A stretch of DNA of 64,000 bases. Source: Nitrosospira sp. GTDB taxonomy: Bacteria; Pseudomonadota; Gammaproteobacteria; Burkholderiales; Nitrosomonadaceae. A program made the position numbers and the translations under genes. Position 1 is the stretch's first letter; every line of letters starts with the position of its first letter. The stretch spans positions 1 to 64,000 of the forward strand of contig JACDGV010000017.1 in NCBI GenBank assembly GCA_013821425.1, written 5' to 3'. This document shows, in pieces, positions 35,693 through 60,879 of this stretch. The notes under the pieces were generated by a model. The model saw only the letters and a program-made list of their open reading frames with translations. It ran no database searches and was not told the DNA's origin.

Positions 35693-35770
35693 ATGAACCC
35701 TATATTAATGTTTTGGGCAACGTATATTCTAGTCGTCATGGGAGGGTTGGGCCTTTTAGTGACAAACTAG
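35693..35770 (+). CDS. 25-residue hydrophobic microprotein (family copy 1)
   Basis: MNPILMFWATYILVVMGGLG and five further residues form one predicted transmembrane helix. GGAGG lies six bases before the ATG and a hairpin follows 27 bases after the stop. The protein is clearly related to those at 51311-51394 and 60799-60879: all start MN, have an aromatic residue near 8-10, a YI(L/V) motif and a G-L-G-hydrophobic-L end. Conservation of the protein between scattered loci, each with a strong ribosome site, argues that it is translated. Function is unknown; single-helix proteins of this size often bind and tune larger membrane complexes. Confidence 0.72.
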   Translation: MNPILMFWATYILVVMGGLGLLVTN

Positions 35771-35797
35771 GGTCACCTTTACAGCGTGAAATAAAAA

Positions 35798-35832
35798 ATG
35801 GCCCAGGGCAGTTTGCTGGGCCATAATTGTTT
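35798..35832 (+). terminator. hairpin terminator after microprotein copy 1
   Basis: ATGGCCCAG (35798-35806) pairs with CTGGGCCAT (35816-35824), followed by the weak T-rich AATTGTTTT. A similar TGGCCC/GGGCCA hairpin follows microprotein copy 2. Confidence 0.7.
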
Positions 35833-36653
35833 TCTAAATAATCAGGAAGTGCGCGACTTAATGTCAAACCAGCTGGCAAGCTCATCAACTGCTGAGGACG
35901 GTTCATGCCTTTGTTCGGTCTTCAGCTTTTCTGCCTTGATAGTGTACAAGCCTCGAGCTGCTGGGTCTTTTAATCCCAACGGTTCAGTTCCTTAAGCTTC
36001 GTTAGCAGTCGGCGAGCGTGATCGTCGAGGCCAGCGGGCTCTATTTTTGCTTATGCCGAAAGACCACTCGGCGAAAACGCCCTGTTCGCTATCCTCCGTC
36101 GGAGATAGCTACATTTAAACGGCTGGCAACGGCGATGTCCTTGGCTGCCGGAAATTTCCTTCGCCGAAAGTGAGGAAGGCCTACCACCCATACGATCACG
36201 TTGCCGTGGGGCTCTCAGCCCCGCCGTAGTCCGTTCACGAATTACGCCACGTTCGAATTCAGCCTTTGTAACACAGGTGTCGAAGCCAGCCCTCCACCAG
36301 GCGAACTGGCCCTGTCGCGTCCTGCCGCGATTTTAGCCCTATTCCCCAGTCCTGAAATGATTCAACGGTTTCAACCAGCTGCTCCATTGCGGGCAAGCCG
36401 GTCAAGCTCAAAAAAATTAATTTGTGCCCCTTCTGCATGTACGAAAGGGCGGGGGTTTTTTAATTGGCAGACCAACTTGCATCGGAGTTGGCATATTTAC
36501 GCGGACGACGTACAGCTAGTACCCAAGTACAGTCTGTACCAAGGTCCAATATTCAGGACGCTTAAAGGCGTTCAGAATAGCTCAGCACTACCAGAAAGAG
36601 CCCCGCGACATACCAGCGGATTTTAATTTAAATGAAAAAAATGAGGAGAAACG
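35833..36653. other. long leader region of the flp pilin gene
   Basis: About 820 bp with no credible gene. The middle part (36055-36223) has a series of potential hairpins. The last 50 bases before the pilin gene are AT-rich and end in a GAGGAGAAACG ribosome site. The pilin promoter is expected here but no unambiguous hexamers were identified. Confidence 0.5.
36055..36223 (+). other. candidate structured RNA leader upstream of the Tad locus
   Basis: Successive hairpins can be drawn: GCCGA/TCGGC (36055-36073), GCTATC...TCCG-GTC-CGGA-like GATAGC (36088-36109), CTGGCA/TGCCGG with one G-U pair (about 36123-36150), CCTTC/GAAGG, and GGGGCT-CTC-AGCCCC (36207-36222). GCCGAAAG occurs twice. The sequence does not match the GEMM c-di-GMP consensus or other riboswitches that I can recall. 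Confidence 0.3.
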
Positions 36654-36836
36654 ATGAACAAAATTATACATGAGATGAAACGGTTTCTGAACGACGAAGA
36701 AGGGGTAACTGCCATCGAATATGGTCTTATCGCAGCCCTGATCGCCGTATTTATTATCGGTTCAGTGACATTGGTTGGGGGTCAGCTAGCCGCCGTATTT
36801 GCTGCTGTTAGCACTGCACTTACTACCGCGCTGTAA
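36654..36836 (+). CDS. flp: Flp/Fap-type pilin
   Basis: The 60-residue prepilin has a short charged leader (MNKIIHEMKRFLNDEEGVTAIEYG) and a hydrophobic helix (LIAALIAVFIIGSVTLVG). The G-V-T-A-I-E-Y processing site with E5 and Y6 after cleavage is the Flp signature. The mature pilin of about 43 residues should polymerise into a Tad pilus after cleavage by the TadV peptidase encoded next. GAGGAG precedes the start. It is the first gene of the Tad locus, and an imperfect GCCGGG...CCTGGC hairpin after its stop may limit read-through. Confidence 0.95.
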   Translation: MNKIIHEMKRFLNDEEGVTAIEYGLIAALIAVFIIGSVTLVGGQLAAVFAAVSTALTTAL

Positions 36837-36862
36837 GAAGAAATCATTAATAAAACTGCCGG

Positions 36863-37480
36863 GTGATGATTGTTGTGATCATCCCTGGCGCAGGTGTGTT
36901 TTTGATGCGTCGTTCGCCGTTCATCCGGAAATGGTTGAATCAAATGTTGGTTATCGGGTTTCTATTGTTGCTGCTACTTGCCGCGGCCTGGCACGATTCC
37001 CTCAGCCGCCGTATACCGAATGCTTTAGTTTTCCCCGGAGCGGCCGTTGGTGTGCTGTCAAATGGCTTGCTGCCGGCGGAGATGGGAGGCTTGGGAATAT
37101 TGGATTCCCTGGGAGGGATGGGAGTTGGGCTGGTGGCGCTGCTGCCACTTTATCTCCTGCGCGCCATGGCGGCTGGAGACGTGAAGCTCATGGCCATGAC
37201 TGGTGCCTTCTTGGGGATTGAAGGCGCAATGGGCGCATTGTTGTGCGTCCTCCTTGCCGGCGGTGTCCTGGCGTTGTGGGCGGCGTGGTGCCAGGGAAAG
37301 CTGCGCAGGTTGCTTCATAACCTCCGGGTGCTGTTCGTTTGCACGACAAGTGGGAGCCGAAATTTTCCTGCGACAGGGGACCCCACACTATCCGCTGAGG
37401 CTTCTGTCGGCAAGCTGCCTTACGGCGTTGCGATCGCGGCTGGAACAGTGTTGCACCTGGCGGTTGTGCAGTGGAGTTGA
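36863..37480 (+). CDS. tadV: TadV/CpaA prepilin peptidase
   Basis: The 205-residue frame has several membrane helices and the two catalytic aspartates of A24 peptidases: WHDSLSRRIPN and the AAGDVKLM form of the GxGD motif. It should cleave the Flp leader at the inner membrane. The start is uncertain: the frame opens at GTG 36863, but ATG 36905 or ATG 36944 (MLVIGFLLLLLLAAAWHD) would give a more typical N-terminus. The C-terminal tail after the GDVKL region is longer and more hydrophilic than usual. Confidence 0.9.
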   Translation: MMIVVIIPGAGVFLMRRSPFIRKWLNQMLVIGFLLLLLLAAAWHDSLSRRIPNALVFPGAAVGVLSNGLLPAEMGGLGILDSLGGMGVGLVALLPLYLLRAMAAGDVKLMAMTGAFLGIEGAMGALLCVLLAGGVLALWAAWCQGKLRRLLHNLRVLFVCTTSGSRNFPATGDPTLSAEASVGKLPYGVAIAAGTVLHLAVVQWS

Positions 37481-37627
37481 CTGCGGGAGTAAGTAAAAAC
37501 AAAGTGCCAGGTCCGTGGTTCTTGCCGTATAGCGGTCCGTACACGCTCGTAAACGGGGTTATTGGGCTGTGAAGAAATACTCAAAGGTCGGCCAGCGGAA
37601 TGACTGTCGGCAAAAAGGGATGGTTAA

Positions 37628-38446
37628 ATGAAGAACGTCAGGGCCATATGGATGATCGCGATCTCGCTTCTGCTGGGTTTGGCTGCAGTGGTGGTCGCGG
37701 GAAAATGGGTTATCGAGCGAACGAGCATAGATGCGTCCGGGGTAATCATCGCCTCCCGCGATATTGATGTGGGCACGCGGCTGACGCCGGATATGTTGCA
37801 GTTGACAGACTGGCCGCGCGCCAACATGCCTGTAGGATCTTTCCAGGACCCGAAGCTGCTCGGTTCCCGTGTAGTCAAGGTTAACCTGGTGCGCGGAGAA
37901 CCGCTGCTGGAATCGAAGCTGGCACCGGAAGGCTCCACTGGAGGATTGTCCGGAGTGATAGCGGAGGGTAAGCGAGCCATCACCGTACGAGTGAACGATG
38001 TTGTGGGGGTCGCAGGATTCGCGCTTCCGGGAAACAAAGTGGACATCCTGGTGAATACTAGAGATGAAAGCGACAAGCCAATCTCTAAAATCGTGCTTGA
38101 ACAGATTCTGGTGCTGGCAGTCGCCCAGGATCTCGGCCGAGATGAAACCAAGGCCAAGGTGGTAAACGCCGTAACTCTGGAAGTGACCCCTGAGCAGGCT
38201 GAAGAACTCGACCTGGCGCGCAGCGTAGGTACCTTGTCGCTGGTTCTACGGAACCAGATGGATAGGAGCGTGGGAACGACGGAAGGCGTGCGGACGCAAG
38301 ATCTGCTTCGGCTGCGTGTCGCAACCACACTCGGGACCCCCGCACCAGTGTACCGAAGTAAGCCCCCCGCACGAAAGGAAACGGTTGAAATCATCAGAGG
38401 TATTCAGAAAACCGAGGCAACACTGTCCGGAAAGGAAATCAGATGA
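37628..38446 (+). CDS. cpaB: CpaB/RcpC pilus assembly protein
   Basis: The 272-residue protein has an N-terminal membrane helix (about 7-25), a SAF domain (VIIASRDIDVGTRLTPDMLQLTDWP), and a VVKVNLVRGEPLLESKLAPEG and RAITVRVNDVVGVAGFALPGNKVDIL core, all typical of CpaB/RcpC. It is a periplasmic protein thought to work with the secretin. Its end overlaps the start of the secretin gene by four bases (ATGA), so the two are translationally coupled. Confidence 0.94.
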   Translation: MKNVRAIWMIAISLLLGLAAVVVAGKWVIERTSIDASGVIIASRDIDVGTRLTPDMLQLTDWPRANMPVGSFQDPKLLGSRVVKVNLVRGEPLLESKLAPEGSTGGLSGVIAEGKRAITVRVNDVVGVAGFALPGNKVDILVNTRDESDKPISKIVLEQILVLAVAQDLGRDETKAKVVNAVTLEVTPEQAEELDLARSVGTLSLVLRNQMDRSVGTTEGVRTQDLLRLRVATTLGTPAPVYRSKPPARKETVEIIRGIQKTEATLSGKEIR

Positions 38447-40059
38447 AGCTGCAACATCCCATGGACAGGAGTTCTGTCTTCCCTTCGGGAAGGGTCCCTT
38501 TTCCGCGAACCGTCAATGTGCATCTGTTCCCGGCTGGTGGTTCGTCCCCGTCGTATTCGCTCCGGCTGTTCGCTGCGGCGCTGTGCGCCGCTGTCATACT
38601 GGGCGGGGGCGTCTCTAATGCGAGAGCACAGGTGATCGCTGCAGCCAAGCCGGCCGATGCGCTGATGGCGGCCACCAGCATGAATGTAACGCTGGGTAAA
38701 TCAGCTCTGCTCAGAATGCCAGCACCGGTCGCGCGCCTATCGGTAGGTAATCCGGAAGTGGCCGACATGATGCTGATTAGCCCGACTGAGATCTATGTGC
38801 TGGGCAAGACCATCGGAACGACCAATATCATTCTCTGGACCAAGGACGGGTCCACTGTTGTAATCGACGTGACTGTCCTCATGGATGCGGCTGCGCTACA
38901 AAGCAAGTTGCAGGAACTCATGCCTGACGAGAAAAACATAAGGGTTAGTGCGGCAGGCGACTCTCTTGCAATTTCAGGCACTATATCCGATACCCTCAAG
39001 GCGGACCGGGCAATGGCGCTTGCCGATGCTTATGTGCGAGCCTCCGCCGGCACTCAGGGCGGTACCCAACGCGCTGGGGCACAGGGCGGTGGTCAAGGCG
39101 GGGAATCACAGGGCGCCGGTCAGGGACTAGGGAGCATTCAAGTGATCAACCTGCTTCAGGTCGGGAGCAACCAGCAAGTGATGCTGGAAGTGAAAATAGT
39201 AGAGATCAACCGAACGGTTGCTGAAAAGCTTGGTTTTGATTTCCAGCGAGCAACCAGAAAGGCTGGAAGCGCGTTCACGCAGATCATGACGGGAATCGTA
39301 GGCGGCGCGCCCGGGCAGCTGTTCCAGTCCCTGGGTACGCCAAGTACAGGCGATTCCTTTCTCATCGACGCCGAGAGAAAGGACGAGCTGATACAGATTC
39401 TCGCCGAGCCCAATATCGTGGCGATCAGTGGCCAGGAAGCAAGCTTCCTCGTGGGCGGCGAAGTCATGATTCCCGTTCCCCAGTTTGCCGGCGTAGTTAC
39501 TCTCCAGTCAAGGCAGTTTGGCGTGGGCCTCAAGTTTACGCCCACAGTGCTGGAGGAAGGCCGGATCAATCTCGTGGTGTCGCCGGAAGTGACGGAACTG
39601 GTCAGCTTCAATACCATCGCCACTACCGGGCTTGGCGGGGTGCTGGCGGTGCCGACCTTCACGACTCGCCGCATATCGACGACAGTACAGCTGCGCGAAG
39701 GCCAGTCGCTCGCCATCGGTGGATTGCTACAGGACAACATCAAGGAACACGTCAGGCGTTTCCCCATATTGGGGGAGCTTCCGGTACTTGGCGCGCTATT
39801 CCGTAGCAGTGATTTCCAGAAGGACAAGACGGAGCTCATGATTGTGGTTACGCCGCATCTGATAAAACCGCTGGAACCTGTTTATAAACTTCCGACAGAC
39901 GCCTTCACTCGGCCCACTCGGTCGGAGTTCCTGCTGGAAGGAAAAATGGAAGGTTCACCCGAGGAATTGCCGGCAAAAGAAATTCCCGGTTCGACGGCTC
40001 AGCCCCCGGCAGAGCCTCTGCCCAATCCCGCCGATGCCGGTGGATTTCAAATGAGATGA
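38443..40059 (+). CDS. rcpA: RcpA/CpaC secretin of the Tad system
   Basis: The 538-residue protein has a signal peptide (helix about 40-62, ending ARAQ), a pilus-formation N domain (SALLRMPAPVARLSVGNPEVADMMLISPTEIYVLGKTIGTTNIILW), a BON-like region, a Gly/Gln-rich linker (about 205-228) and the secretin domain with VMLEVKIVEINR, GEVMIPVPQ and LAIGGLLQDN segments. It forms the outer-membrane channel for the pilus. The Gly/Gln linker and the Pro-rich tail are low-complexity. The N-terminus is longer than usual before the signal helix; a later in-frame start is possible. Confidence 0.95.
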   Translation: MKLQHPMDRSSVFPSGRVPFPRTVNVHLFPAGGSSPSYSLRLFAAALCAAVILGGGVSNARAQVIAAAKPADALMAATSMNVTLGKSALLRMPAPVARLSVGNPEVADMMLISPTEIYVLGKTIGTTNIILWTKDGSTVVIDVTVLMDAAALQSKLQELMPDEKNIRVSAAGDSLAISGTISDTLKADRAMALADAYVRASAGTQGGTQRAGAQGGGQGGESQGAGQGLGSIQVINLLQVGSNQQVMLEVKIVEINRTVAEKLGFDFQRATRKAGSAFTQIMTGIVGGAPGQLFQSLGTPSTGDSFLIDAERKDELIQILAEPNIVAISGQEASFLVGGEVMIPVPQFAGVVTLQSRQFGVGLKFTPTVLEEGRINLVVSPEVTELVSFNTIATTGLGGVLAVPTFTTRRISTTVQLREGQSLAIGGLLQDNIKEHVRRFPILGELPVLGALFRSSDFQKDKTELMIVVTPHLIKPLEPVYKLPTDAFTRPTRSEFLLEGKMEGSPEELPAKEIPGSTAQPPAEPLPNPADAGGFQMR

Positions 40060-40072
40060 GGAGATGGCAAGT

Positions 40073-40408
40073 ATGAGAACGGCATCGATAAAAGATAATC
40101 CTGCCTGGCTGTCTGCAGCTCTTGGGGCAGTTTTGCTATCGGCATTAACGGCCTGTGTACCGATCAGCCCCAGGTGGGATGCAGGATTCGGCACAGCTGT
40201 AAACATCGCTAAAACCCAGCAGATTGCCAACCCTAATGCTTTGCACAAGGATCCTGTCAAGGGAATCGACGGCCAGGCAGGTGATGCTGCCCTGGACAAC
40301 TACCGAGAATCATTCGTGAATCCGCGGCCGGCCCTAACAGGTGGCGTGGTTAACGTCGGTAGTGGCAGGGCGGGAAGCGGCGGCGGGGGCGGGGTGGGGG
40401 GCAGGTAG
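40073..40408 (+). CDS. CpaD-like pilus assembly lipoprotein
   Basis: The start is ATG 40073, nine bases after GAGGAG; an in-frame ATG at 40064 has no room for a ribosome site. The 111-residue product has a signal helix and lipobox (LSALTAC), followed by RWDAGFGTAVNIAKTQQIANPNA, a segment shared with CpaD/RcpB lipoproteins of Tad loci, and a Gly-rich tail. It should sit at the outer membrane and assist the secretin. It is shorter than classic CpaD proteins, keeping only the C-terminal conserved part. Confidence 0.8.
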   Translation: MRTASIKDNPAWLSAALGAVLLSALTACVPISPRWDAGFGTAVNIAKTQQIANPNALHKDPVKGIDGQAGDAALDNYRESFVNPRPALTGGVVNVGSGRAGSGGGGGVGGR

Positions 40409-40446
40409 CCACTACCCTGCCTAGATTAGAACAAGGACCACAGCGA

Positions 40447-41742
40447 ATGAGACGCCTCCCGAGCATGCTTCCCAATCACCGGAGCCGCACAAGCCGCAGA
40501 AAAGAAGGTGGGGCGGTCGCTATTATCGTGGCACTGTCGATGGTTGTTCTGACGGGTTTTGTCGGCTTGGCGATCGATCTGGGCAGGCTCTACGTTGCAA
40601 AATCCGAACTGCAAAACAGTTCCGACTCGTGTGCGCTTGCAGCGGTACGCGAATTGACCGGCGCCAATACTAATCAACTTGTTCTCGCGGAAGCCGCGGG
40701 CATCATGGCGGGCATGCGTCATGACGTCCTCTTTCAAGGCGAAACGATTCTTCTTACTGCTGACAGCGTAACATTCAGTCAAACCCTTGATGGCGTTTAT
40801 CAGACAAGGCCCGCCATTAGCTCAGCCGACGCACTTTTGATGCAGTTTGTGCGTTGCACGGCGGAACGAGCCGGGATTGCCAACTGGTTCATTCAGGCAC
40901 TGGATATCCTGCCGGGAGTTGCAATCGGCACCCAGACGGTTTCCGCTGCTGCGGTAGCCGCGCGTTCGCCGTCACAAAACGTTTCCTGTGCCCTCCCTGT
41001 AGGTATCTGTAGCAGTGCGCTCAACCCCGTCCCTGCAATTGGAACATGGTTGCAAAGCGTGATCGGCCCTGGTGGATCAGGCGGAAACGGCGACCTGACA
41101 GGAAATTTCATGTGGGTGGATTACTCCCCCCCCGGTGGAGGGGCTTCCGAGATTGGAGAAAATCTGACCAGTCCAGGTATCTGCAACCTCCCTGCTACCG
41201 GCTCTCAAGTGGGCCAATCCGGGGTCATATCCTCCCTGGCGGCCAGCTGGAACAGCCGTTTTGGCATATACAAAGGCAGCGTCAAGGCGGGAGAGTCCGT
41301 CCCCGACTACACCGGTTACGCCTATACCGAGGCACCGGGAAGCTGGCCCTCCAAGTTCAACGCTTTTGCTGATTTCAGGAGCAAAAGGGGAGCCTATGCA
41401 ATGTATCAGGGGGATGCATCAACCGGCCTGAGCACAAGCGGCACGATCGAGAATGCCGGCTATCTCCAGACAAGCGGGGGTGATCGCAGGGTAGCAACCG
41501 CAGCAGTTGTGGATTGCGCCGGTTTCACCGGCGGGTCGACTGTAGCTCCCGTCCAGTCATGGGCTTGCGTTCTGATGCTGCACCCTATCAATAACAACGC
41601 TGGTGGCAGCGGAACGGGCGCAAACAGGATGTACCTTGAATACCTTGGCTGGTCTGACGATCCAGGCAGTCCATGCGTGACGTCCGGTTTACCAGGAGGA
41701 CCTGCCAGCGGAGGACCGCTTGTTCCGGCCCTTGTGCGATGA
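40447..41742 (+). CDS. tadG: TadG-like pilus-associated protein
   Basis: The 431-residue protein has an N-terminal Tad motif with a membrane helix (GGAVAIIVALSMVVLTGFVGLAIDLGRLYVAKSELQNSSDSCALAA), typical of TadG, and a long Gly/Ser-rich extracytoplasmic region. It is a minor pseudopilin-like component. Its end overlaps the next gene by four bases. The body is poorly conserved in the family, so only the N-terminus supports the call. Confidence 0.88.
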   Translation: MRRLPSMLPNHRSRTSRRKEGGAVAIIVALSMVVLTGFVGLAIDLGRLYVAKSELQNSSDSCALAAVRELTGANTNQLVLAEAAGIMAGMRHDVLFQGETILLTADSVTFSQTLDGVYQTRPAISSADALLMQFVRCTAERAGIANWFIQALDILPGVAIGTQTVSAAAVAARSPSQNVSCALPVGICSSALNPVPAIGTWLQSVIGPGGSGGNGDLTGNFMWVDYSPPGGGASEIGENLTSPGICNLPATGSQVGQSGVISSLAASWNSRFGIYKGSVKAGESVPDYTGYAYTEAPGSWPSKFNAFADFRSKRGAYAMYQGDASTGLSTSGTIENAGYLQTSGGDRRVATAAVVDCAGFTGGSTVAPVQSWACVLMLHPINNNAGGSGTGANRMYLEYLGWSDDPGSPCVTSGLPGGPASGGPLVPALVR

Positions 41743-42257
41743 GGGTTGCCGTGCGCAAGCAAAAATACGTGATGGAGACATTCTCCGGTTTGAAGGAAGG
41801 CCGGGCGCGAGGCGCGATACGTGGAGCGGCCGCTGTGGAATTTGCCCTGCTGTTGATACCCCTGCTGCTGCTGGCGCTGGGCGTAGCCGAATACGGGCGA
41901 GCGCTCTATCAATACAACTCGCTCGTCAAGACAGTGCGCGATTCGGCGCGGCTCATATCGCAATATAACCCCGCGGATGCAGCTTCCTACCAGACCGCGC
42001 TAGACGATGCACGATGCCTCGCAGTTCACGGCAATACAGCTTGTACCGGCCCGTCGCTTGCGCCAGGGCTCACAGCTGACATGGTAGGGATTGCCTCTGC
42101 AACAACCGCTACCGCTGCTGGAACGCCAATTACGCTGGTTGAGGTCAGTATCACAGGTTATGTATTCAACTTTGTGTTTAATCCTGGCCGTCTCCTGGGA
42201 AATGCCGTGGATAGCCTCACCTTCGGTGACATTCGGGCAACGATGAGGCAGCTATGA
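41739..42257 (+). CDS. tadE: TadE-family pseudopilin
   Basis: I start the gene at ATG 41739, overlapping the tadG stop by four bases; the frame is open further upstream but without a ribosome site. The 172-residue product has the TadE motif GAAAVEFALLLIPLLLLALGVAEYGRALYQYN with the E-F-A pattern at the start of the helix. It is a minor pilin of the Tad apparatus, processed by TadV in known systems. It overlaps the next gene by four bases. Confidence 0.92.
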   Translation: MRVAVRKQKYVMETFSGLKEGRARGAIRGAAAVEFALLLIPLLLLALGVAEYGRALYQYNSLVKTVRDSARLISQYNPADAASYQTALDDARCLAVHGNTACTGPSLAPGLTADMVGIASATTATAAGTPITLVEVSITGYVFNFVFNPGRLLGNAVDSLTFGDIRATMRQL

Positions 42258-42703
42258 TAGCGAGGCATCCTTCCACGGTATCTCACTCCCCGGACCGGTT
42301 CAAACAGCGCGGAGCCGCCGCAGTGGAGTTCGCGTTGGTTTCTTCGCTCCTTTTTACGCTGTTGTTCGGCATCATGGAGATGAGCCGTGTCCTGTTCTAC
42401 TTTAATACTGCAACCGAGGCCACGCGCCTGGGCGCGCGGCTGGCTGTAGTGTGCAATAAAGACGCCTCAATCATCAAGACCAGGATGAGTAACATGCTGA
42501 CCATCCTGGCTCCCGGCAACATTGATGTCACTTATGTGCCTGGCGGATGCGATATCAATTCGTGTCAATCCGTTACTGTAAGCATTACAGGGTTGGATAT
42601 CTCAACTTTTATTCCGTTTGTGCCTTTAAATCTTAGCATGCCGTCATTTTCGACAACACTGCCGCGCGAGAGCATGAATAGCGTCAATCCAGATTGCAGT
42701 TGA
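42254..42703 (+). CDS. tadF: TadE/TadF-family pseudopilin
   Basis: The 149-residue protein has the motif RGAAAVEFALVSSLLFTLLFGIMEMSRVLFYFNTATEATRLGARLAVVC, the same family as TadE; by position it corresponds to TadF. Three cysteines in the extracytoplasmic part could form a disulphide. It is translationally coupled to tadE through an ATGA overlap. Confidence 0.9.
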   Translation: MIARHPSTVSHSPDRFKQRGAAAVEFALVSSLLFTLLFGIMEMSRVLFYFNTATEATRLGARLAVVCNKDASIIKTRMSNMLTILAPGNIDVTYVPGGCDINSCQSVTVSITGLDISTFIPFVPLNLSMPSFSTTLPRESMNSVNPDCS

Positions 42704-42754
42704 GCCGAATTGCCCTGGAAAAAGTTAACTAGCAACGAATAAGAGAACGGAAAA

Positions 42755-43915
42755 TTGAAGATCGCCCTGATTGCGCAAGACCCGCAAGGCCCGGACAATA
42801 TTCGGAAGCTCCTCGCAGAGGCCGATAAGCCTTACCTGCTTTGCTCGATGATTGGCGGCGTGCGACAGATCGCCGCTATGGCGGAGCAGGAGAAACCCGA
42901 CCTGCTGCTGCTGGAAGGGCAGCACTTCAGCCCAGTGGAACTACAGGTTGTCAACGAGGTAACTTCCCGCTTTCCCGATCTCGGGATGGTTATGCTTTGC
43001 CCCACCCAACCTCTAGAGGTTCTCATCGACGTCATGCGTGCCGGCATTCGCGAAGTGCTGCCGACGCCATTGACCCGTAATGTGCTGGTCGACGCTTTGG
43101 AGCGCTTTCAGCAACGCTACATATTGTCCCGGACGCCCGCAAATCAATGCACCGTGCTTGCATTCCTTCCCTGTAAAGGCGGTAGCGGAGCGACATTCCT
43201 GGCTACCAATATCGCGTATGCACTGGCTGCCGCAGAGAATAAGCGCGTTGCCCTATTCGATTTTAATCTCCAGTTCGGCGACGCGTCGCTGTTCGTCTCC
43301 GATAGTCCGCCAACGACTTCGATTGCCGATGTCGCTCGCCAGATCCAACGGCTGGACGGGTCATTCCTGGCTTCCAGCATGGTCCAGGTATTGCCAAATT
43401 TTGGTGTTCTAGCTGCCCCGGAGGCGCCGGAAATGGCTGCGGAGATAAAAGCGGAGCATATCAACCCACTGTTTCAGGTAGCGATGAAACATTATGATTT
43501 TCTGATTCTGGACATCGGGCGCGAGCTGAATGAAATTTCCATACAGGCGCTGGATCGGGCCGACCTGATTTTCCCCGTGCTACAGCAAACCCTGCCTTCC
43601 ATCCGGGATGCTAAACGTATGTGGAACACATTTCGCGCCCTTAACTATTCAGACGATAAGCTTCGGCTGATCTTGAATCGCTACATGAAAAACGCGGAAA
43701 TTACGCTTGCCGACTTGGAAAACACATTGAATTTGAAGATTTCTAAAGTGATACCCAACGATTATGACACGGTCACCTCATCGGTGAATCAGGGCGTGCC
43801 CGCCATCAAGCTGAACCGGCGTAGCCCGGTGGCGAAATCAATTCAGGAGATCGCGCACGAACTATCTCACGGTGCCGTTAGGGGAAGCCTGCTTCGGAAA
43901 TTGTTTACATTTTAG
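42755..43915 (+). CDS. tadZ: TadZ/CpaE pilus localisation ATPase
   Basis: The 386-residue protein starts at TTG 42755. An N-terminal atypical receiver-like domain (about 1-115) precedes a ParA/MinD-like ATPase with FLPCKGGSGATFLATNIAYALA (deviant Walker A), VALFDFNLQFGDASLF, and FLILDIGRELNEI. TadZ proteins mark the pole or site where the Tad machine assembles. The ribosome site is weak (AGAGAACGG), and the TTG start agrees with family length. Confidence 0.93.
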   Translation: MKIALIAQDPQGPDNIRKLLAEADKPYLLCSMIGGVRQIAAMAEQEKPDLLLLEGQHFSPVELQVVNEVTSRFPDLGMVMLCPTQPLEVLIDVMRAGIREVLPTPLTRNVLVDALERFQQRYILSRTPANQCTVLAFLPCKGGSGATFLATNIAYALAAAENKRVALFDFNLQFGDASLFVSDSPPTTSIADVARQIQRLDGSFLASSMVQVLPNFGVLAAPEAPEMAAEIKAEHINPLFQVAMKHYDFLILDIGRELNEISIQALDRADLIFPVLQQTLPSIRDAKRMWNTFRALNYSDDKLRLILNRYMKNAEITLADLENTLNLKISKVIPNDYDTVTSSVNQGVPAIKLNRRSPVAKSIQEIAHELSHGAVRGSLLRKLFTF

Positions 43916-44106
43916 GAAGAGCCTGGAAGCCGCAGGAAACGATTTTGCAATAAGACCATGAAGTATCGGAAACCGAACAACGTTCAATCGTTACGACCTC
44001 GTGAACGGGCCCATTGCCGAGCAGTGCGGGTGCACGGAATTTGTTTCCGGGCAGTGAATGCACTGAACCCCAAAACCATGAAACCCCATACTCTACGGAT
44101 GCCACC

Positions 44107-45465
44107 ATGTCAATTCGAGACCGTCTTCAAAGCGTAAGCAGAACTGGAACCGCGGGGCAGAACGCGGCGTCACTTGTCGCCATGCACGATATTCCGGCCT
44201 ACCAGGAACTGAAGACATACGTCCATCAGAAGTTGCTCGACCGCATGGATTTGACGGTCATGGAAAGCCTTTCGCCCGAACGTCTTATGACGGAAATCAA
44301 GAACCTTGTGGAACGGTTGCTGACCGAAGAAACGACGCCCATTAACGACGCGGAGCGGCAGTGCATTGTCCGTGACATTCAGAACGAAGTTCTCGGCCTG
44401 GGCCCCCTTGAGCCCCTGCTGGCAGATCCCAGTATCTCTGACATCCTGGTAAATACTTACCGACAGGTATATGTCGAGCGCCGGGGCAAGCTTGAAATGA
44501 CCGACACCCATTTCGCCAGCGAAGCCCATTTAAGGAAAATCATAGACAGGATTGTTTCGCGTGTCGGACGCCGCGTGGACGAATCGAGCCCCATGGTGGA
44601 CGCACGCTTGCCCGATGGCTCCCGAATCAATGCCATCATTCCCCCTTTGGCAATAGACGGATCGATGCTTTCGATTCGGCGTTTTTCCGTCAAGCCGCTC
44701 AAGGTAAACGATCTGGTTGGTTTCAGGTCAATGACGCCGGAAATGGGTGAGATCATCGGCGCGCTGGTCAAGGGCAAGTGCAGCATACTTATTTCCGGCG
44801 GGACCGGTAGCGGAAAAACTACGTTGCTCAACATGTTGTCTGGTTTCATTCCCCCCTCGGAACGCATTGTTACCATCGAGGATGCGGCCGAATTGCAGTT
44901 GCAGCAGCCTCACGTAGTGCGCCTCGAAACACGTCCTCCCAACGTTGAAGGCAAGGGCGAAGTATCGCAGCGCGCACTGGTTAGAAACAGCCTGCGGATG
45001 CGCCCTGACAGGGTGGTTATAGGTGAGGTGCGGGGCGCCGAGGCGCTGGATATGTTGCAGGCCATGAATACCGGGCACGAAGGGTCCATGGCAACTGTAC
45101 ATGCCAATACGCCAAGGGATGCTCTTGGCAGGATCGAGAATATGGTGAACATGGTCGGGCTTAATTTGCCGATCAAGGCAGTCCGGCAGCAGATCAGCTC
45201 GGCCATTGCGGTGGTGATTCAGGTTTCGCGACAAACCGACGGCAAGCGCAAGCTGACCAGCATTCAGGAAATCACCGGGATGGAAGGCGATATCATTACC
45301 ATGCAGGAAATCTACACTTTCGCACAGACAGGCGTGTCGGCGGACGGCACGGTTGAGGGGCATTTCCGCGCAACCGGCATCCGTCCAAAGTTTGCCGAGC
45401 GGCTACGAATACACGGCATTCCATTGCGGGAGGAGTTATTTGATCCCTCCCGCCGGTACGCGTAA
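44107..45465 (+). CDS. tadA: TadA/CpaF secretion ATPase
   Basis: I choose ATG 44107, giving 452 residues; the frame is open upstream to 44014 but that part is not protein-like. It has the helical N-terminal domain, then LGPLEPLLADPSISDILVN, RRVDESSPMVDARLPDGSRINAI, Walker A GGTGSGKTT, VTIEDAAELQL, the Asp-box region RPDRVVIGEVRGAEALDMLQAMNTGHEGSMATVHAN and the family's C-terminus. It is the hexameric cytoplasmic motor for Tad pilus assembly. It lies about 190 bases after tadZ and 14 before tadB. Confidence 0.96.
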   Translation: MSIRDRLQSVSRTGTAGQNAASLVAMHDIPAYQELKTYVHQKLLDRMDLTVMESLSPERLMTEIKNLVERLLTEETTPINDAERQCIVRDIQNEVLGLGPLEPLLADPSISDILVNTYRQVYVERRGKLEMTDTHFASEAHLRKIIDRIVSRVGRRVDESSPMVDARLPDGSRINAIIPPLAIDGSMLSIRRFSVKPLKVNDLVGFRSMTPEMGEIIGALVKGKCSILISGGTGSGKTTLLNMLSGFIPPSERIVTIEDAAELQLQQPHVVRLETRPPNVEGKGEVSQRALVRNSLRMRPDRVVIGEVRGAEALDMLQAMNTGHEGSMATVHANTPRDALGRIENMVNMVGLNLPIKAVRQQISSAIAVVIQVSRQTDGKRKLTSIQEITGMEGDIITMQEIYTFAQTGVSADGTVEGHFRATGIRPKFAERLRIHGIPLREELFDPSRRYA

Positions 45466-45479
45466 ACGGAGAAGAGACT

Positions 45480-46451
45480 ATGGATCCCCTCTATTACCTG
45501 TTCCTCGTATTTTTCTTCCTTGCTGTGGTGCTGTTCCTGGAAGGAGGCTACCTGGCCTGGAACGCTTACAAGGGACCGGAAGCCAAACGCATCCGGGAAC
45601 GCTTGCAGGCCGTTTCGGCCGGATGGAGCGGCGCGGAGACGTCGTTGCTGAAACAACGGCTGCTCAGTAATTCGCCCCCGCTGGAACGCTTTCTCCTTCA
45701 GATTCCACGCATTCATACCCTCGACCGGCTGCTGCAACAATCCGGAATGGCGCTCATGGTGACACAATTCCTTGGCTACACCGCTATGGCTGGGGTGGGA
45801 GGGATGGCGAGCGCCGCGTTGCTGGGCCTGCCGTTTGGCATCACGCTGCTTTGCGGCGCGTTGGGAGGCGCACTGCCCGTGTTCTTTGTGTTCAGCGCGA
45901 AACGCAAGCGCCTGCAAAAAATCGAACAGCAGTTGCCGGAAGTAATCGATCTGTTGGCCCGTGCCTTGAAGGCCGGCCATGCGTTTTCCAGCGCCTTGCA
46001 GATGGCGGCCATTGATGGCCCTAGCCCGACGGCTGGGGAGTTCCGTCTGACGTTCGATGAAATCAACTTTGGCGTCTCGGTGCAGGACGCGTTGGTTAGC
46101 CTTGCCGCTCGCGTTCCCATCACCGATCTGCGTTACTTTATTATCGCTGTCCTGATCCAGCGCGAGAGTGGCGGCAATCTGGCGGAGCTGCTAGATAAAA
46201 TCAGCGGCCTTATCCGTGCCCGCCTGGCGCTGCTAGGGAAAATTCGGGTGCTTTCGGCTGAGGGACGGCTGTCGGCATGGATTCTTTCCTGCCTACCATT
46301 TGCGGCCGCATTAATGATCAATTTCGTCAATCCCGGATTTCTCGACGTGTTTTGGACAGATCCTGCAGGACCCGCAATGGTTGGCACTGCCCTGGGGATG
46401 ATGATGACCGGCATTTTCTTCATGTCGCGCATCATCAAGATTCGGGTATGA
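45480..46451 (+). CDS. tadB: TadB inner-membrane platform protein
   Basis: The 323-residue protein has an N-terminal helix, two helices near 90-145, a T2SF/GspF-type cytoplasmic domain with ARALKAGHAFSSALQMAA and VPITDLRYFIIAVLIQRESGGNLAELLDKIS, and two C-terminal helices. It anchors the TadA motor together with TadC. Neighbour spacing is 14 bp from tadA and 35 bp to tadC. Confidence 0.95.
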   Translation: MDPLYYLFLVFFFLAVVLFLEGGYLAWNAYKGPEAKRIRERLQAVSAGWSGAETSLLKQRLLSNSPPLERFLLQIPRIHTLDRLLQQSGMALMVTQFLGYTAMAGVGGMASAALLGLPFGITLLCGALGGALPVFFVFSAKRKRLQKIEQQLPEVIDLLARALKAGHAFSSALQMAAIDGPSPTAGEFRLTFDEINFGVSVQDALVSLAARVPITDLRYFIIAVLIQRESGGNLAELLDKISGLIRARLALLGKIRVLSAEGRLSAWILSCLPFAAALMINFVNPGFLDVFWTDPAGPAMVGTALGMMMTGIFFMSRIIKIRV

Positions 46452-46486
46452 AGCAGTTTTAACCAAACCATGGAAGAGGCCCAAGC

Positions 46487-47422
46487 ATGACACCTGTTCA
46501 AATTGCCTACCTGGCGGTAATTTTCATCTTCGTGGCGGGAGCTGCTCTAGGGGTGATGCGAGCCTTTGCTCCACGTCCTACCAAGGCCCGGCTTGAACAA
46601 GTTGCTGCAGATGCCTCGCCCAAGGAGGGAGCGGCAGACCAGTGGTCGCAGACGATTGTGAATATGTCTGGTCCATTGGCTCATCTATCGCTGCCAAGCG
46701 AAGGCTGGGAAAAATCTATTTTACGAACTCGCTTCATGCACGCGGGCTGCGGTGTCCGGTCCGTGCCCATGATTTACTTTGCCTTGAAGACTTTACTGGC
46801 GCTGGTTTTGCCCGGTTTTTTCCTGATCTACGCGGGCCTTGGCGATCTGGAACCAGGCACGAACACCGTGATGGCAGCCGTTGTAGTGCTTTCGGCGCTC
46901 GGCTACTACCTTCCGAATTTTGTGCTGGCGCGTATGATTGCGCTACGCCAGCGCGAACTGTTTGAGAGTTTCCCCGATGCCATCGATCTCATGACGGTTT
47001 GCATCGAGGCGGGTTTGGGGCTGGATGCCGCAATGGTACGAGTGGGAGAAGAAATGCGCCTGAGAAGTAAGACCTTGGCGGACGAGCTTCATCTGGTAAG
47101 CCTTGAGCTGCGCGCCGGCAGAACGCGGGAGCAGGCCTTGCGTAACCTTGGTTTGAGAACGGGCGTCGAAGAAATTGAAGCTCTGGTGTCAATGCTGATT
47201 CAGGCCGATCGCTTTGGCACCAGCATCGCCGCATCCCTGCGCGTCCATTCAGACACGCTGCGGACCACACGCCGGTTGCGAGCGGAAGAGGCTGCCGCAA
47301 AAATAGCGCTGAAACTGCTTTTCCCCCTAATTTTCTGCATCTTTCCTTCACTTATGCTCGTGCTGTTGGGGCCGGCGGTCATTAATATTTATCGTGTGCT
47401 GCTACCGACAATGGCAGGCTAA
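46487..47422 (+). CDS. tadC: TadC inner-membrane platform protein
   Basis: The 311-residue protein has the same architecture as TadB: an N-terminal helix, central helices (about 90-145), a T2SF domain with FPDAIDLMTVCIEAGLGLDAAMVRVGEEM and EIEALVSMLIQADRFGTSIAASLRVHSDTLR, and C-terminal helices (IALKLLFPLIFCIFPSLMLVLLGPA). It is the second platform subunit of the Tad machine. Confidence 0.95.
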   Translation: MTPVQIAYLAVIFIFVAGAALGVMRAFAPRPTKARLEQVAADASPKEGAADQWSQTIVNMSGPLAHLSLPSEGWEKSILRTRFMHAGCGVRSVPMIYFALKTLLALVLPGFFLIYAGLGDLEPGTNTVMAAVVVLSALGYYLPNFVLARMIALRQRELFESFPDAIDLMTVCIEAGLGLDAAMVRVGEEMRLRSKTLADELHLVSLELRAGRTREQALRNLGLRTGVEEIEALVSMLIQADRFGTSIAASLRVHSDTLRTTRRLRAEEAAAKIALKLLFPLIFCIFPSLMLVLLGPAVINIYRVLLPTMAG

Positions 47423-47436
47423 TCATTAGGGGATCC

Positions 47437-48573
47437 ATGTTTAAAGTAAAACGGCTTGTATGGGTAGGGGTCTGCGTATCCGTCATGGGCGGATGTGCCT
47501 TGTACCAAAACAAGAATAAACAGGCCTTGAGCGTCAAGGGGGTGACTGATATAAAACACACCGCGGGCGCTTTCGGGGCAATGTACTGGCTGGGCCGGTA
47601 CTACCAGGGAAGGGGTAAGTATGCGGAAGCAATCGCAGCATATGAAAAAGCGCTGGATGCAAACCCGAGCCATGTCGAAGCGCACAACGGGCTGGGCATC
47701 TCCCACTTTATGCAGGGAGGCCACCAACCGGCGCTGCACCATCTGCGGAAGGCAATCGAACTGCTACCGGTGGCGACACACTTGCACAATAATCTCGGCT
47801 ATGCCCATATGATGGTGCGAGGACACGATGGCGAGGCCGCTGCCGCATTCGAGGAGGCGCTGCGGCTGGATCCGGAGAATATTCAGGCCCATGACAGCCT
47901 CATGGTCGTTTACGAAAGGATGGGGCTGCACGACAAGACCGCAATGCTGGCAATGGCAAGACCCCGACTCGCGGCCGCTCGTCCTGCGATGCCCGGCATA
48001 GCACCTGGCCCAACCGGGATTTTCATCGATTCCGCCACCGTACGGGAAACTGCAATGTCAAGCCAACACGAGATGCAATATAGTACCGATGCCCGGATGG
48101 TGCAGGTGAACCCCAATCTGTTCGAGCTCAAGTTAAACCAGGCTGATCCGGTGGTGGCAATCCTTGCTGCCAATCCCCCCGTCAAACCGCAGAGTCTCGT
48201 TAACCCCGAGAGCAAGGATGGCCTTGAAGTTTCGAACGGCAGTGGCATGACGGGTATCGCTTCACATGTATCCACCTTTCTGCAGAAGAGAGGGTACACC
48301 AAGGTGCGGCTGACTGATCGCCCGCCATTCCAGCAGGCACGCACGGAGATACACTACCGGACTGGCAATCACGTCCTGGCCGACAGGATTAACCAGATGA
48401 TGCCAAAGCAAGTTCCCCTGGTGGAAAGCTACAATCTTCGTACCGATATTCGGGTACGAGTACTGCTGGGCAAGGATGTCGACGGGGAGGTTGGCTATTT
48501 CGGCAAGCCGGCGAAGATGCAGATTGCGCAAAGAACCGGCGCGGCTGCAACCAGGAAACAGCCTTGGGAATGA
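47437..48573 (+). CDS. tadD: TadD-like TPR lipoprotein with LytR C-terminal domain
   Basis: The 378-residue protein has a signal helix and lipobox (VMGGC), three TPR repeats (about 48-155; YWLGRYYQGRGKYAEAIAAYEKALDANPSHVEAHNGLGI and following), a linker, and a C-terminal LytR_C-type domain (LEVSNGSGMTGIASHVSTFLQKRGY ... DIRVRVLLGKD, about 265-355). TadD lipoproteins assist secretin assembly. The extra LytR_C domain is seen in some Tad loci and may contact the cell envelope. It is the last rightward gene of the locus. Confidence 0.9.
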   Translation: MFKVKRLVWVGVCVSVMGGCALYQNKNKQALSVKGVTDIKHTAGAFGAMYWLGRYYQGRGKYAEAIAAYEKALDANPSHVEAHNGLGISHFMQGGHQPALHHLRKAIELLPVATHLHNNLGYAHMMVRGHDGEAAAAFEEALRLDPENIQAHDSLMVVYERMGLHDKTAMLAMARPRLAAARPAMPGIAPGPTGIFIDSATVRETAMSSQHEMQYSTDARMVQVNPNLFELKLNQADPVVAILAANPPVKPQSLVNPESKDGLEVSNGSGMTGIASHVSTFLQKRGYTKVRLTDRPPFQQARTEIHYRTGNHVLADRINQMMPKQVPLVESYNLRTDIRVRVLLGKDVDGEVGYFGKPAKMQIAQRTGAAATRKQPWE

Positions 48574-50845: not shown

Positions 50846-51310
50846 ATCATTCTTAAGGAATTTTTTTAAAAGCTCTAATACCTTAATGCTACGTTATCCG
50901 CCATTATTGTCCATCGTACTAAAGTACATGAAGCTATTTTTTTCAAACCTTGATCCACGGGCTCGCTGCCAAGCTTGATGCAACCGCCCGACGAAGACAG
51001 GATTGCGGCCAGGTATCGCATCCGAGAATAACCAGAGGAACCTTTGAACAAGCATTTGGCTCATACAGAATAGCCGTCGGCAGCAGCGGCTTGACCTGTT
51101 CCTTTTCGTTGGCACCAAGGGTTAAATGCACCCCCAATCGGCATCGTGTGACATCCACCGTCGCTCGGGCATATTTGTCGCTTTTTGCCAAGCCCGAGCA
51201 TACAACCCAACCTTGCCCCCCATGTCTCTTATGCGGGGTACCGCACTGATTCCGGGAGCCAGAAAGGGAATGATATAGACGTCGCAAACCTGCACACAAG
51301 GAGGTGCGCC
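50846..51310. other. intergenic region before microprotein copy 2
   Basis: About 465 bp. Open frames on both strands (for example 50943-51299 on the minus strand) overlap each other and have no ribosome sites or family features, so none is called. The right end carries a perfect AAGGAGGT ribosome site for the microprotein at 51311. Confidence 0.45.
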
Positions 51311-51394
51311 ATGAACAGCATGTTATTGTTTTGGGGTGCGTATATTCTTGTACTTCTGGCTGGGCTGGGAATTCTAGGAGTAAGTTGGAGCTGA
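51311..51394 (+). CDS. 27-residue hydrophobic microprotein (family copy 2)
   Basis: MNSMLLFWGAYILVLLAGLG plus seven further residues (ILGVSWS) form a single helix. A perfect AAGGAGGT lies five bases before the ATG, and a terminator hairpin follows the stop by 22 bases. It aligns without gaps to copy 1 (35693-35770) along almost its full length and shares ...GLG-hydrophobic-LG with copy 3 (60799-60879). Conserved protein sequence, a strong ribosome site and its own terminator indicate a self-contained expressed gene. Function is unknown. Confidence 0.78.
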   Translation: MNSMLLFWGAYILVLLAGLGILGVSWS

Positions 51395-51416: not shown

Positions 51417-51450
51417 TGGCCCGGAGCATATCGCTACCGGGCCAAGTTTT
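51417..51450 (+). terminator. terminator of microprotein copy 2
   Basis: TGGCCCGG (51417-51424) pairs exactly with CCGGGCCA (51437-51444) and is followed by AGTTTT. Confidence 0.8.
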
Positions 51451-51537: not shown

Positions 51538-51540
51538 TTC

Positions 51541-51969: not shown

Positions 51970-52497
51970 ATGAAAAGCTTGCTCATCCTCGCCATTGCTC
52001 TCATAGCCCCGGTTTTTATCGCACACGCTGACCCAAAAGGGCTCGACGATGCCGAGATTGTCGCCATCGCCATGACCTTGAGCCAGGCCGAGATCAACGC
52101 CGGCAATCTTGCCCAGTCGGTGTCATCTCATCCGGAAATCAAGAAATTCGGCCAGCGCGTGGCTGCCGAGCATGACGATTTCCATTCTTCGTTGCGCGAT
52201 TGGGTAAACAAGCAAAATATCGCGCCACAGCGCAACTCAATCAGCGATAGCTTGAAAGCCAGCGAGGAAAAATACCTGGAAAAGCTCAAGGGGTTGAGCG
52301 GCATACTGTTCAACCTGGACTATATGAGCCACAAAGTAGTATCGCATCAGCAAGCGCTCGACATGTGGGACAAGAAGCTGATTCCTGAGGCCGAGGACGA
52401 AGAACTGAAAAGCTTGTTGAGGGCGATGCGGAAACGGCTTGCAGATAATCTTGAAGATGCCAGGCTGATCAAATCATCGTTGGGCCGAAAGAAGTAG
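51970..52497 (+). CDS. exported DUF4142 (ferritin-like fold) protein
   Basis: The 175-residue protein has a signal peptide (cleavage near AHADP, residue 20) and a DUF4142 domain: EINAGNLAQSVSSHPEIKKFGQRVAAEHDDFHSSLRDW, YMSHKVVSHQQALDMWDKKLIPEAEDEELKSLLRAM. DUF4142 proteins are periplasmic four-helix bundles, usually stress-linked, without a known reaction. The His and Glu residues in EHDDFH and SHQQALDM are where ferritin-like ligands could lie. It is preceded by AAGGAG and is monocistronic. Confidence 0.88.
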   Translation: MKSLLILAIALIAPVFIAHADPKGLDDAEIVAIAMTLSQAEINAGNLAQSVSSHPEIKKFGQRVAAEHDDFHSSLRDWVNKQNIAPQRNSISDSLKASEEKYLEKLKGLSGILFNLDYMSHKVVSHQQALDMWDKKLIPEAEDEELKSLLRAMRKRLADNLEDARLIKSSLGRKK

Positions 52498-54674: not shown

Positions 54675-54685
54675 GCATTTATAGT

Positions 54686-56536: not shown

Positions 56537-56549
56537 TATAGGTGAGAAA

Positions 56550-56584: not shown

Positions 56585-56585
56585 T

Positions 56586-56887: not shown

Positions 56888-56890
56888 CAA

Positions 56891-58075: not shown

Positions 58076-58190
58076 CTGGCGCGTTTGCGCCGGACTCGTT
58101 ACCGCCTGAGCCGCCTGTGCCGCCCAAGCAGGCTTGATCGTGTTTGCGCCTCCATCCCTTCGAGTCAAAAGCTGCTGGCCCGGGCTTTGA

Positions 58191-59534: not shown

Positions 59535-59549
59535 ATCTTAATTGTTCTC

Positions 59550-59744
59550 CTATGATAGGCTGCCGTGCAAATTGAGGATCTCAGGCAAGATCGAGGATCG
59601 ATCAAGCGACATGTGCATCGCGACAAGCACGGAAGCGTTAAAATCCTCTCCCCGGCCCCCAGTCAGTTTCTTTAGTGCCTCGATTCTGCCCGAAGACGCT
59701 CCAACGACTACAACATCACGCATATCAGATACCCCGCTTGACAC
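59550..59744 (-). pseudogene. N-terminal fragment of a CheB-type methylesterase domain
   Basis: The 64-residue frame reads RDVVVVGASSGRIEALKKLTGG ... SVLVAMHMSLDRSSILPEILNLHG, which is the N-terminal part of a CheB catalytic domain (GASSGG with active-site Ser). It then stops, so about two thirds of the domain is missing and the second Gly of GASSGG is Arg. It lies 15 bases upstream of the NYN gene in the same orientation. Because the remainder is absent, it should not be active. Confidence 0.65.
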
Positions 59745-59822
59745 TATGTCACCATTACATGATCGCTGATTCTACTCGTTCAGCAAGAAAATAATTGCGA
59801 TTTACCGCTGTTGCTCCTCCAG

Positions 59823-60503
59823 CTAGATTTTCGGGATACGCAGCGTTTTGCTGATCATCAATGTTCCGGAGAGCATGAACAGCAGAGCCAGAGGATGCAA
59901 TTCCCAAGGGCCGATCCTCCATATTCCCCAGTATAGATTCTCACCGATCTGCCCGGTCCAGGCCGCGAGGACCAACACGGCGACAAGGACAATACTGGTG
60001 GGAATGGGTGTTCCCTCGAAATACGCAACTTTGTCCGCCCCTGTCGAGAGGCTCTCCGCGGTAATATTGAATCGCGCCAGCCGGCTTACTCCGCAGCATA
60101 CGAAATAAATCAGCGCTATCCAATCCCAGCCGCCGCGCAGCCCGGCAGCAAAACCGAGAGCGGCAGGGGCAATGCCGAAGGAGAGTATGTCCGCGAGAGA
60201 ATCGAGTTCGCGGCCCAAAGGGGAATGCTGGTGCCGCCATCGCGCGATGCGTCCATCGAGAACGTCAAATATGAAAGCAGCCGCGATCATTGCGGCAGAA
60301 GCGAAAAAATCAATCGCCAGGCGGCTTTCAATGTGGAGCATGGCGAAGAACACGGCGGCTACACCGCAGGCAGCATTGCCCAGTGTAAAGAAATCCGCGA
60401 GGTGGAATCCGCGAATCATGGAGAAATGCCTGGGGCGATCGGGGGAGGAGGGCATCGGTTTTCGTGTTTCTTCCAGGGAGATTCGTTTATAGCTACGGCT
60501 CAT
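59823..60503 (-). CDS. pssA: CDP-diacylglycerol-serine O-phosphatidyltransferase
   Basis: The 226-residue membrane protein has the CDP-alcohol phosphotransferase motif DG-x2-AR-x8-G-x3-D-x3-D in DVLDGRIARWRHQHSPLGRELDSLAD, preceded by FFTLGNAACGVAAV and followed by several membrane helices and SRLARFNI. This pattern is that of the multi-pass PssA, which makes phosphatidylserine from CDP-diacylglycerol and serine. The annotated start includes about 28 residues before the first conserved segment; ATG at MPSSPDRP is an alternative. It is monocistronic here. Confidence 0.9.
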   Translation of the reverse strand: MSRSYKRISLEETRKPMPSSPDRPRHFSMIRGFHLADFFTLGNAACGVAAVFFAMLHIESRLAIDFFASAAMIAAAFIFDVLDGRIARWRHQHSPLGRELDSLADILSFGIAPAALGFAAGLRGGWDWIALIYFVCCGVSRLARFNITAESLSTGADKVAYFEGTPIPTSIVLVAVLVLAAWTGQIGENLYWGIWRIGPWELHPLALLFMLSGTLMISKTLRIPKI

Positions 60504-60798
60504 CAGCCGGCGAGTATCTGTTCATTCCAACGAGATTGTGCAGTCAATCGAAGTGTAGTCAATCGAGGGGCGCCTGACTTTCCAAGGAAGCCCTGAAGCA
60601 TAAGAAAACCCGGGACCCGGGAGCGGTTACCAGCTTGCGCAACAGGGACTGTATTGCTGGAAATTTCCGCCAGCCCCGTCATGTTCCCTTCACAGTTTAA
60701 GCGCTCTTCCCCGCTTCCTATGTGACGTAACGCACGGATGGGATAAATCAAAAGCGAAATGATATGCGGGAATACCGGCTCTTTAGAAGGAGGACGCC
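60504..60798. other. intergenic region with half of a MITE-like repeat end
   Basis: AAGGAAGCCCTGAA at 60584-60597 matches one terminal repeat of the dispersed element; the partner end is absent. No gene is supported in this stretch of 295 bp. A strong AAGGAGG precedes the microprotein at 60799. Confidence 0.5.
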
Positions 60799-60879
60799 AT
60801 GAATAGCATCACTTCCTGGGTTGTTTACATTGTAATTCTTGTTTCGGGTTTGGGAGTTCTAGGAATAGGCTGGGTATGA
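60799..60879 (+). CDS. 26-residue hydrophobic microprotein (family copy 3)
   Basis: MNSITSWVVYIVILVSGLGV plus six residues (LGIGWV) form one helix. AAGGAGG lies five bases upstream. It shares MNS, a Trp, YI(V/L), a GLG-hydrophobic-LG block and a terminal W with copy 2 (51311-51394) and is also related to copy 1 (35693-35770), while the DNA differs strongly outside the gene. No terminator hairpin follows; the YtxH-like gene starts 55 bases downstream and may be co-transcribed. Function is unknown. Confidence 0.75.
   Translation: MNSITSWVVYIVILVSGLGVLGIGWV

Follow-up and report, generated by a model that had tools for sequence, protein, structure and literature searches.

A family of single-helix microproteins in Nitrosospira and its candidate link to a stress regulon

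The window considered here is a stretch of 64,000 nucleotides (nt) from a Nitrosospira genome (GenBank assembly GCA_013821425.1, contig JACDGV010000017.1, positions 1 to 64,000, forward strand), and our subject is a family of very short hydrophobic peptides of which this stretch encodes three. The initial annotation had placed three open reading frames (ORFs) for such peptides here, each preceded by a GGAGG-type ribosome site at 5 to 6 bases, and both the frames and the sites are as it described them:

35693 to 35770, forward strand: subfamily A microprotein gene, 25 amino acids (aa), MNPILMFWATYILVVMGGLGLLVTN; GGAGG 6 nt before the ATG
51311 to 51394, forward strand: subfamily A microprotein gene, 27 aa, MNSMLLFWGAYILVLLAGLGILGVSWS; GGAGG 6 nt before the ATG
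60799 to 60879, forward strand: subfamily B microprotein gene, 26 aa, MNSITSWVVYIVILVSGLGVLGIGWV; GGAGG 5 nt before the ATG

That the three genes are related was also rightly seen: with the 51311 peptide as query, a search of the whole genome returned four matches, namely the three window copies (the other two at E = 2.4e-4 and 2.6e-3) and a fourth copy, and a genus profile, which itself contains both of these other copies, gave them 9.2e-10 and 1.1e-9. A family of three is, however, an under-count. The genome has six members, the three in the window, an A-like copy on contig C35 (at C35:305283, placed at C35:305292 in the search with the 51311 peptide), a subfamily D gene at C25:4942 and a D2 gene at C31:13784, and there is a wider family outside it. 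All are stand-alone ORFs of 20 to 27 aa with one hydrophobic helix that keep the conserved positions, which are W8, Y11, G18 and G20 in subfamilies A to C and I4, G9, V12, L18 and G22 in D. The subfamily patterns are MN..L.FWGTYILVLVAGLG for A (window genes 35693 and 51311), MNSI.SWIAYIVILVAGLGVLGIGWV for B (window gene 60799), MDN.IYWGTFILILLAGSG for C, MNNIIWWVGFIVILLAVLSFLGLR for the 24-aa subfamily D and MNNIIYIVGLIVIVVAIL.F.G for D2.

Among 125 genomes of the Nitrosomonadaceae, the 51311 peptide alone found 29 matches at E<=1, the good ones nearly all in Nitrosospira, while a 41-row profile of A to C found 45 at E<=1e-5, in 20 of the 23 genomes of the genus and with 1 to 6 per genome. In these counts near-identical strains (G105 and G106, for example) stand separately, G107:C181 (where the frame continues beyond the motif) and L147 are left out, and the profiles A2 and A4 include some sequences that they had themselves found. 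One A to C match carries an in-frame TAG, an A-like copy of Nitrosovibrio tenuis (L111, at G115 C13:58249), a genome with six such matches, and from it we read that copies of A to C appear to be gained and lost. Subfamily D first surfaced as a faint match of the A to C profile (E 0.014, in several genomes); its kinship with A to C was then given a probability of 92.9 and a score of 26.2 by hhalign, against 10.4 for the reversed D profile and no more than 14.9 when the columns, the first two excepted, were shuffled 40 times.

The evidence that these peptides are made and matter as proteins comes from substitutions, expressed as uncorrected Nei-Gojobori proportions of synonymous (pS) and non-synonymous (pN) differences with start and stop codons excluded. 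Selection is strongest in D (17 distinct genes, pS 0.610, pN 0.058, ratio 0.095), followed by D2 (5 genes, 0.603 and 0.113, ratio 0.19), B (11 genes, 0.582 and 0.122, ratio 0.21), A (18 genes, 0.575 and 0.221, ratio 0.38) and C (8 genes, 0.448 and 0.199, ratio 0.44). The groups were defined on peptide motifs, a choice that somewhat lowers pN, and A and C mix paralogues; the D ratio is nevertheless not explicable by such grouping. With ratios of 0.095 to 0.44, with homologues of the same frame and length in 20 of the 23 Nitrosospira genomes and with a conserved ribosome site, the earlier argument for translation from a conserved peptide holds good, and what we see is clearly neither a loss of frames nor the substitution pattern of non-coding DNA. 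On this sequence evidence the family is almost certainly real and translated. One could still suppose that the genes are leader peptides or RNA elements, in which translation rather than its product matters, and a short ORF with a strong ribosome site and a hairpin behind it would suit that idea; but the amino acids are kept at synonymous sites that are nearly saturated (as the D values show), most loci have no close same-strand gene downstream, and a scan of the window with Rfam returned tRNA only, with no match at the microprotein genes, so that we regard this explanation as very improbable.

The subfamilies differ widely in their spread. Beyond the genus, the 102 remaining Nitrosomonadaceae genomes yielded no credible match to A to C, and a sample of 398 other genomes of the order yielded none; two candidates of the family outside the genus (G006 and G026, E 0.07-0.09) were rejected as members of A to C, having no properly placed start codon. 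Subfamily D, sought with three query sequences, is in 20 of 399 genomes of the order and 15 of 158 genera (our own genome included); one match of this set is doubtful, that of G170, which falls within a frame of 512 aa and probably does not belong to D. A 17-row profile finds D in 20 of the 125 Nitrosomonadaceae genomes, all of them in the genus (20/23). In a phylum-wide sample of 398 genomes it matches 46, from 28 of 213 genera; among these are our own genome and three genomes of the order that had contributed to the profile. The spread of D is thus patchy, since it is absent from the 102 other genomes of the Nitrosomonadaceae, and it is mostly single-copy. We think it likely that the 24-aa subfamily D is the ancestral form and that A to C are genus-specific expansions. 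A tblastn search of plasmids with D and A queries gave no match, though queries of 24-27 aa are weak in 7.3 Gb.

The genes around these loci vary: 418 neighbouring ORFs of 73 loci, chosen by length without a gene model, include 273 singletons, and the largest family among them has five members. A conserved neighbourhood was therefore rejected as a clue to function, the exception being a YtxH-like ORF that follows B genes. The members in Nitrosospira would, from sequence, be small stand-alone transcription units, with B sometimes joined to a YtxH-like gene.

As to their physical character, the six members of our genome have a best 19-residue hydropathy mean of 2.14-2.87 and at most one charged residue, which is the C-terminal Arg of D, and the natural reading is that each would form one inner-membrane helix. 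The initial annotation recognised no described family, and neither did we: scans of 27 A to C members and of D against Pfam and NCBIfam gave matches below the cut-offs only (PsbT, DUF2619, CoV_E, YohP and others), a profile search of the PDB gave one PsbT chain for A to C (E 0.057) and none for D, and six D fragment strings had no match in the main text of papers in the PMC library. The family may stand unnamed in catalogues of small ORFs. The PsbT resemblance deserves discussion, as the peptides could be small subunits with a structural role in a membrane complex, respiratory or ammonia-oxidising, in the manner of the PsbT and CydX helices. The Pfam match to PsbT (PF01405) reaches E 0.03 at best and recurs in 13 of the 27 A to C members, and a hydrophobic helix with YILVL is common to both; but it stays below every cut-off, the curated one of Pfam included, and covers only 14 residues of hydrophobic helix without the Trp/Gly register. 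Moreover, D lacks a PDB match and also occurs in non-nitrifying genomes across the phylum, and the genes are lone ones, as the scattered neighbours described above show. We consider such a structural role improbable, if less so than that of a leader peptide.

More can be said from the upstream regions. A 22-bp palindrome, TCTRTGYG-N6-CGYACAGA (hereafter the dyad), lies upstream of A, B and D genes. Scored on 16 positions with dinucleotide shuffles as the null, it reaches at least 13/16 before 43 of the 61 genes of A, B, D and D2. At least 14/16 is reached before 11 of 24 A, 9 of 12 B, 11 of 18 D and 5 of 7 D2 genes, before none of 10 C genes, and before 7 of 17 D genes from elsewhere in the order; the shuffled means at this threshold are 0.00-0.03. 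The dyad was derived from these same upstream regions, so that the counts upstream of genes in the genus are not independent of its discovery; those in other genera (7/17) and the whole-genome counts given below are closer to being so. In the window itself the pattern with one mismatch allowed has four matches with 1.56 expected, and for this reason only the two exact dyads are counted; each is followed after 19 nt by a box that may be its promoter element. The 35693 copy has another motif, CGAACAGNTGTAAYAA, which also precedes most C genes:

51228 to 51249, forward strand: 22-bp dyad CTTATGCG-GGGTAC-CGCACTGA, 15/16 consensus positions
51269 to 51274, forward strand: -10-like box AATGAT, 19 nt after the dyad, putative promoter element
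60717 to 60738, forward strand: 22-bp dyad CCTATGTG-ACGTAA-CGCACGGA, 16/16
60758 to 60763, forward strand: -10-like box AATGAT, 19 nt after the dyad, putative promoter element
35632 to 35639, forward strand: core of the second motif TGTAACAA, of CGAACAGNTGTAACAATT type, 61 nt before the 35693 start

The centre of the dyad would lie near -44 from the start point that the -10-like box implies, a position used by activators. A regulator of the CRP/FNR type was weighed on the length of 22 bp and on this position, and set aside, as the half-site, TGYG, differs from the core of CRP sites. As for the second motif, of the 28 upstream regions that lack a dyad 12 have TGTAAYAA, and of the 43 with a dyad none has it (shuffled mean 0.25, maximum 3). 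We observe separately that the CGAACAGNTGTAACAATT motif and the dyad are mutually exclusive, and that the former retains CGAACAG, which resembles a half-site of the latter.

The dyad is not confined to microprotein genes. In our own genome the pattern YNTDTGYK-N6-CGNACNGA has 15 sites, with 2 for a reversed control pattern, on contigs C22, C24, C25, C31, C35, C41, C45, C46 and C51 of G000, and in the 23 genomes of the genus 302, with 39 reversed. Four of the 15 precede microprotein genes; the others precede EgtB (TIGR03440, above cut-off, with the called start 321 nt from the dyad), a catalase, a PRC-barrel protein, DUF3309, a beta/gamma-crystallin protein, DUF1207, a pyridine-nucleotide oxidoreductase whose start is unsure, and four unassigned or weak ORFs. 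The DUF3309 protein (PF11752, at L215) is itself small and hydrophobic and under the same dyad, but has about 50 aa and another sequence. Among 29 loci from the 302 sites, other Nitrosospira have the dyad before PRC-barrel proteins (three times), DUF4142, Hsp20, Lon, D, D2 and several unassigned ORFs. Ten other genomes of the order have 61 sites together, against 20 in the control, with a clear excess in G212 (18 vs 1), G476 (8 vs 1) and G092 (7 vs 0), and in other genera of the order the genes after such sites include PRC-barrel (L287, L291) and BON proteins (L286, L290). The microproteins thus have an upstream site in common with stress genes, which backs the initial guess of a stress response, and at the level of sequence we think it quite likely that they belong to a stress regulon, the palindrome marking a candidate general stress regulon of Nitrosospira. 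Dyads also occur in the genomes that have no subfamily, with 16 sites in G102 (control 2) and 4 in G112 (control 0).

The D genes outside the class point the same way by a different route. From 47 matches in the same phylum but another class, of which 41 had loci and six weaker ones were not fetched, a set of 38 D genes was obtained after three unparsed loci had been dropped. Within 150 bp upstream of 15 of these 38 there is GGAAC-N15-18-GTT, with spacings of 17 or 18 only, while shuffles gave a mean of 0.3 and a maximum of 3, and the opposite orientation gave 3. The Sphingomonas melonis study (PMC6599016) gives the EcfG motif as GGAAC-N17-20-GTT, usually no more than 100 bp from the start, and lists among the top EcfG-dependent genes a PRC-barrel protein, a catalase and a TIGR03440 protein, TIGR03440 being the EgtB model matched after a dyad in our own genome. 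EcfG is stated in PMC3892343 to be exclusive to Alphaproteobacteria, the class to which the genomes of the 38 D genes probably belong. The two systems differ in that the Nitrosospira dyad is a palindrome and no EcfG box; the kinds of genes that they precede are nevertheless alike, and thus two unrelated switches seem to drive a similar stress set together with the microprotein.

Short hydrophobic peptides in several copies are also the mark of type I toxins such as TisB, Ldr, Ibs and ShoB, and the family could be of this sort, its peptides depolarising the membrane, silenced by antisense RNA and multiplied as TisB, Ldr and Ibs are. Small size, hydrophobicity, up to six A to C copies in one genome and the copy with an in-frame stop (L111) are all in keeping with this. 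The minus strand has promoter-like sequences at 51400-51371 (9/12) and 35867-35838 (10/12), which is about what shuffles give (means 0.3 and 0.6), and none at 60799. D, moreover, being mostly single-copy, under strong purifying selection and conserved across the phylum, is unlike typical toxins, no tandem arrays of these units were observed, and the promoters are of a kind found before house stress genes. For the family as a whole we therefore judge a toxin function unlikely, a little less so than a structural subunit; for the expanded A to C copies it is possible.

The remaining features of the window concern what lies behind the genes:

35798 to 35824, forward strand: terminator-like hairpin ATGGCCCAGGGC...CTGGGCCAT, GGCCC type, 3' of the 35693 copy
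51417 to 51444, forward strand: terminator-like hairpin TGGCCCGG...CCGGGCCA, GGCCC type, 3' of the 51311 copy
60936 to 61171, forward strand: YtxH-like ORF, ATG at 60936 with AAAGGAG; a longer version of the ORF starts with TTG at 60902

Two genes had been credited with their own terminator hairpins of similar sequence. Hairpins of the GGCCC type are indeed present at both, but a strict terminator scan, which needs five T in the 8 bases after the stem, called neither the one at 35693 nor the one at 51311. Of the 21 A-type copies in the genus, 10 have a hairpin of the pattern GGCCC...GGG[CT]C behind them, and because of this we regard it as an inherited feature of many units. The 60799 copy is without a GGCCC hairpin and is followed by the YtxH-like ORF with its own ribosome site, probably on the same transcript; this ORF scores 25.2 bits against PF12732, under the cut-off of 37.5, and a Shine-Dalgarno sequence plus ATGAATC, the YtxH-like pair, stands 3' of 5 of 12 B genes. 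In predicted transcripts the ribosome sites of the microprotein genes are not strongly sequestered (unpaired 0.35-0.50). The window also holds a Flp/Tad-type pilus region at 36201-48573, between two of the copies, with an RcpC/CpaB-like protein at 37628-38446, and a DUF4142 protein at 51970-52497, downstream of the 51311 copy; DUF4142 is found after a dyad in another Nitrosospira as well (L240).

The explanation that we favour is that these are stress-induced inner-membrane microproteins acting by helix packing. An activator would bind the palindrome under stress and the peptides would be induced together with the general stress regulon; each would then insert into the inner membrane as a single helix, whose face of small residues (G9, A16, S19 and G22 in D, G18 and G20 in A and B) would pack against a partner helix or against itself, and this packing would tune a membrane protein or stabilise the membrane. 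Several observations weigh against it. The 35693 copy has no dyad (score 11/16), 18 of the 61 A, B and D genes are below 13/16, and the C genes lack the dyad altogether (0/10); by pattern, a -10-like box [AG]AT[AG]A follows only 20 of the 43 dyads, 15 of these at 19-20 nt, and no regulator was found for the dyad. Some downstream genes lie 190-320 nt from their dyad, which makes its control of them unsure, three of the ten other order genomes show no clear excess of sites (G134 with 2 vs 5, G387 with 1 vs 1, G152 with 1 vs 0), 23 of the 38 D genes have no EcfG box, and two of the 23 genomes of the genus, G102 and G112, have no subfamily at all. Taking this into account we still think the reading, as suggested by the sequences, likely as a whole; on the effector step, the packing of the helix, we find the case evenly balanced.

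Single-helix microproteins linked to stress are a known kind, and YohP, YnhF and the like are stress-induced small membrane proteins of this sort in E. coli. The present family resembles them in size, in its one helix, in its stand-alone genes and in a link to stress that here is read from promoters, and differs in that there is no significant sequence match (the NCBIfam YohP model once, at E 0.38), in its taxa and in being under EcfG or the dyad. What is new is therefore a family with an unusually wide spread. We would go further only tentatively, and with somewhat more doubt than confidence: D may be a core, unannotated stress microprotein of Pseudomonadota, wired according to class to EcfG or, in Burkholderiales, to an activator at the palindrome, which would itself mark an undescribed stress regulon of this betaproteobacterial order, with the microproteins among its commonest targets.

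That a protein of 24 residues can be under strong selection across a phylum and be missing from Pfam and NCBIfam shows what is lost below annotation cut-offs. EcfG mutants exist in Alphaproteobacteria, so that control of D by stress is open to immediate test, and the palindrome would offer a route to the general stress regulator of Nitrosospira and of its order, which are drivers of soil nitrification.

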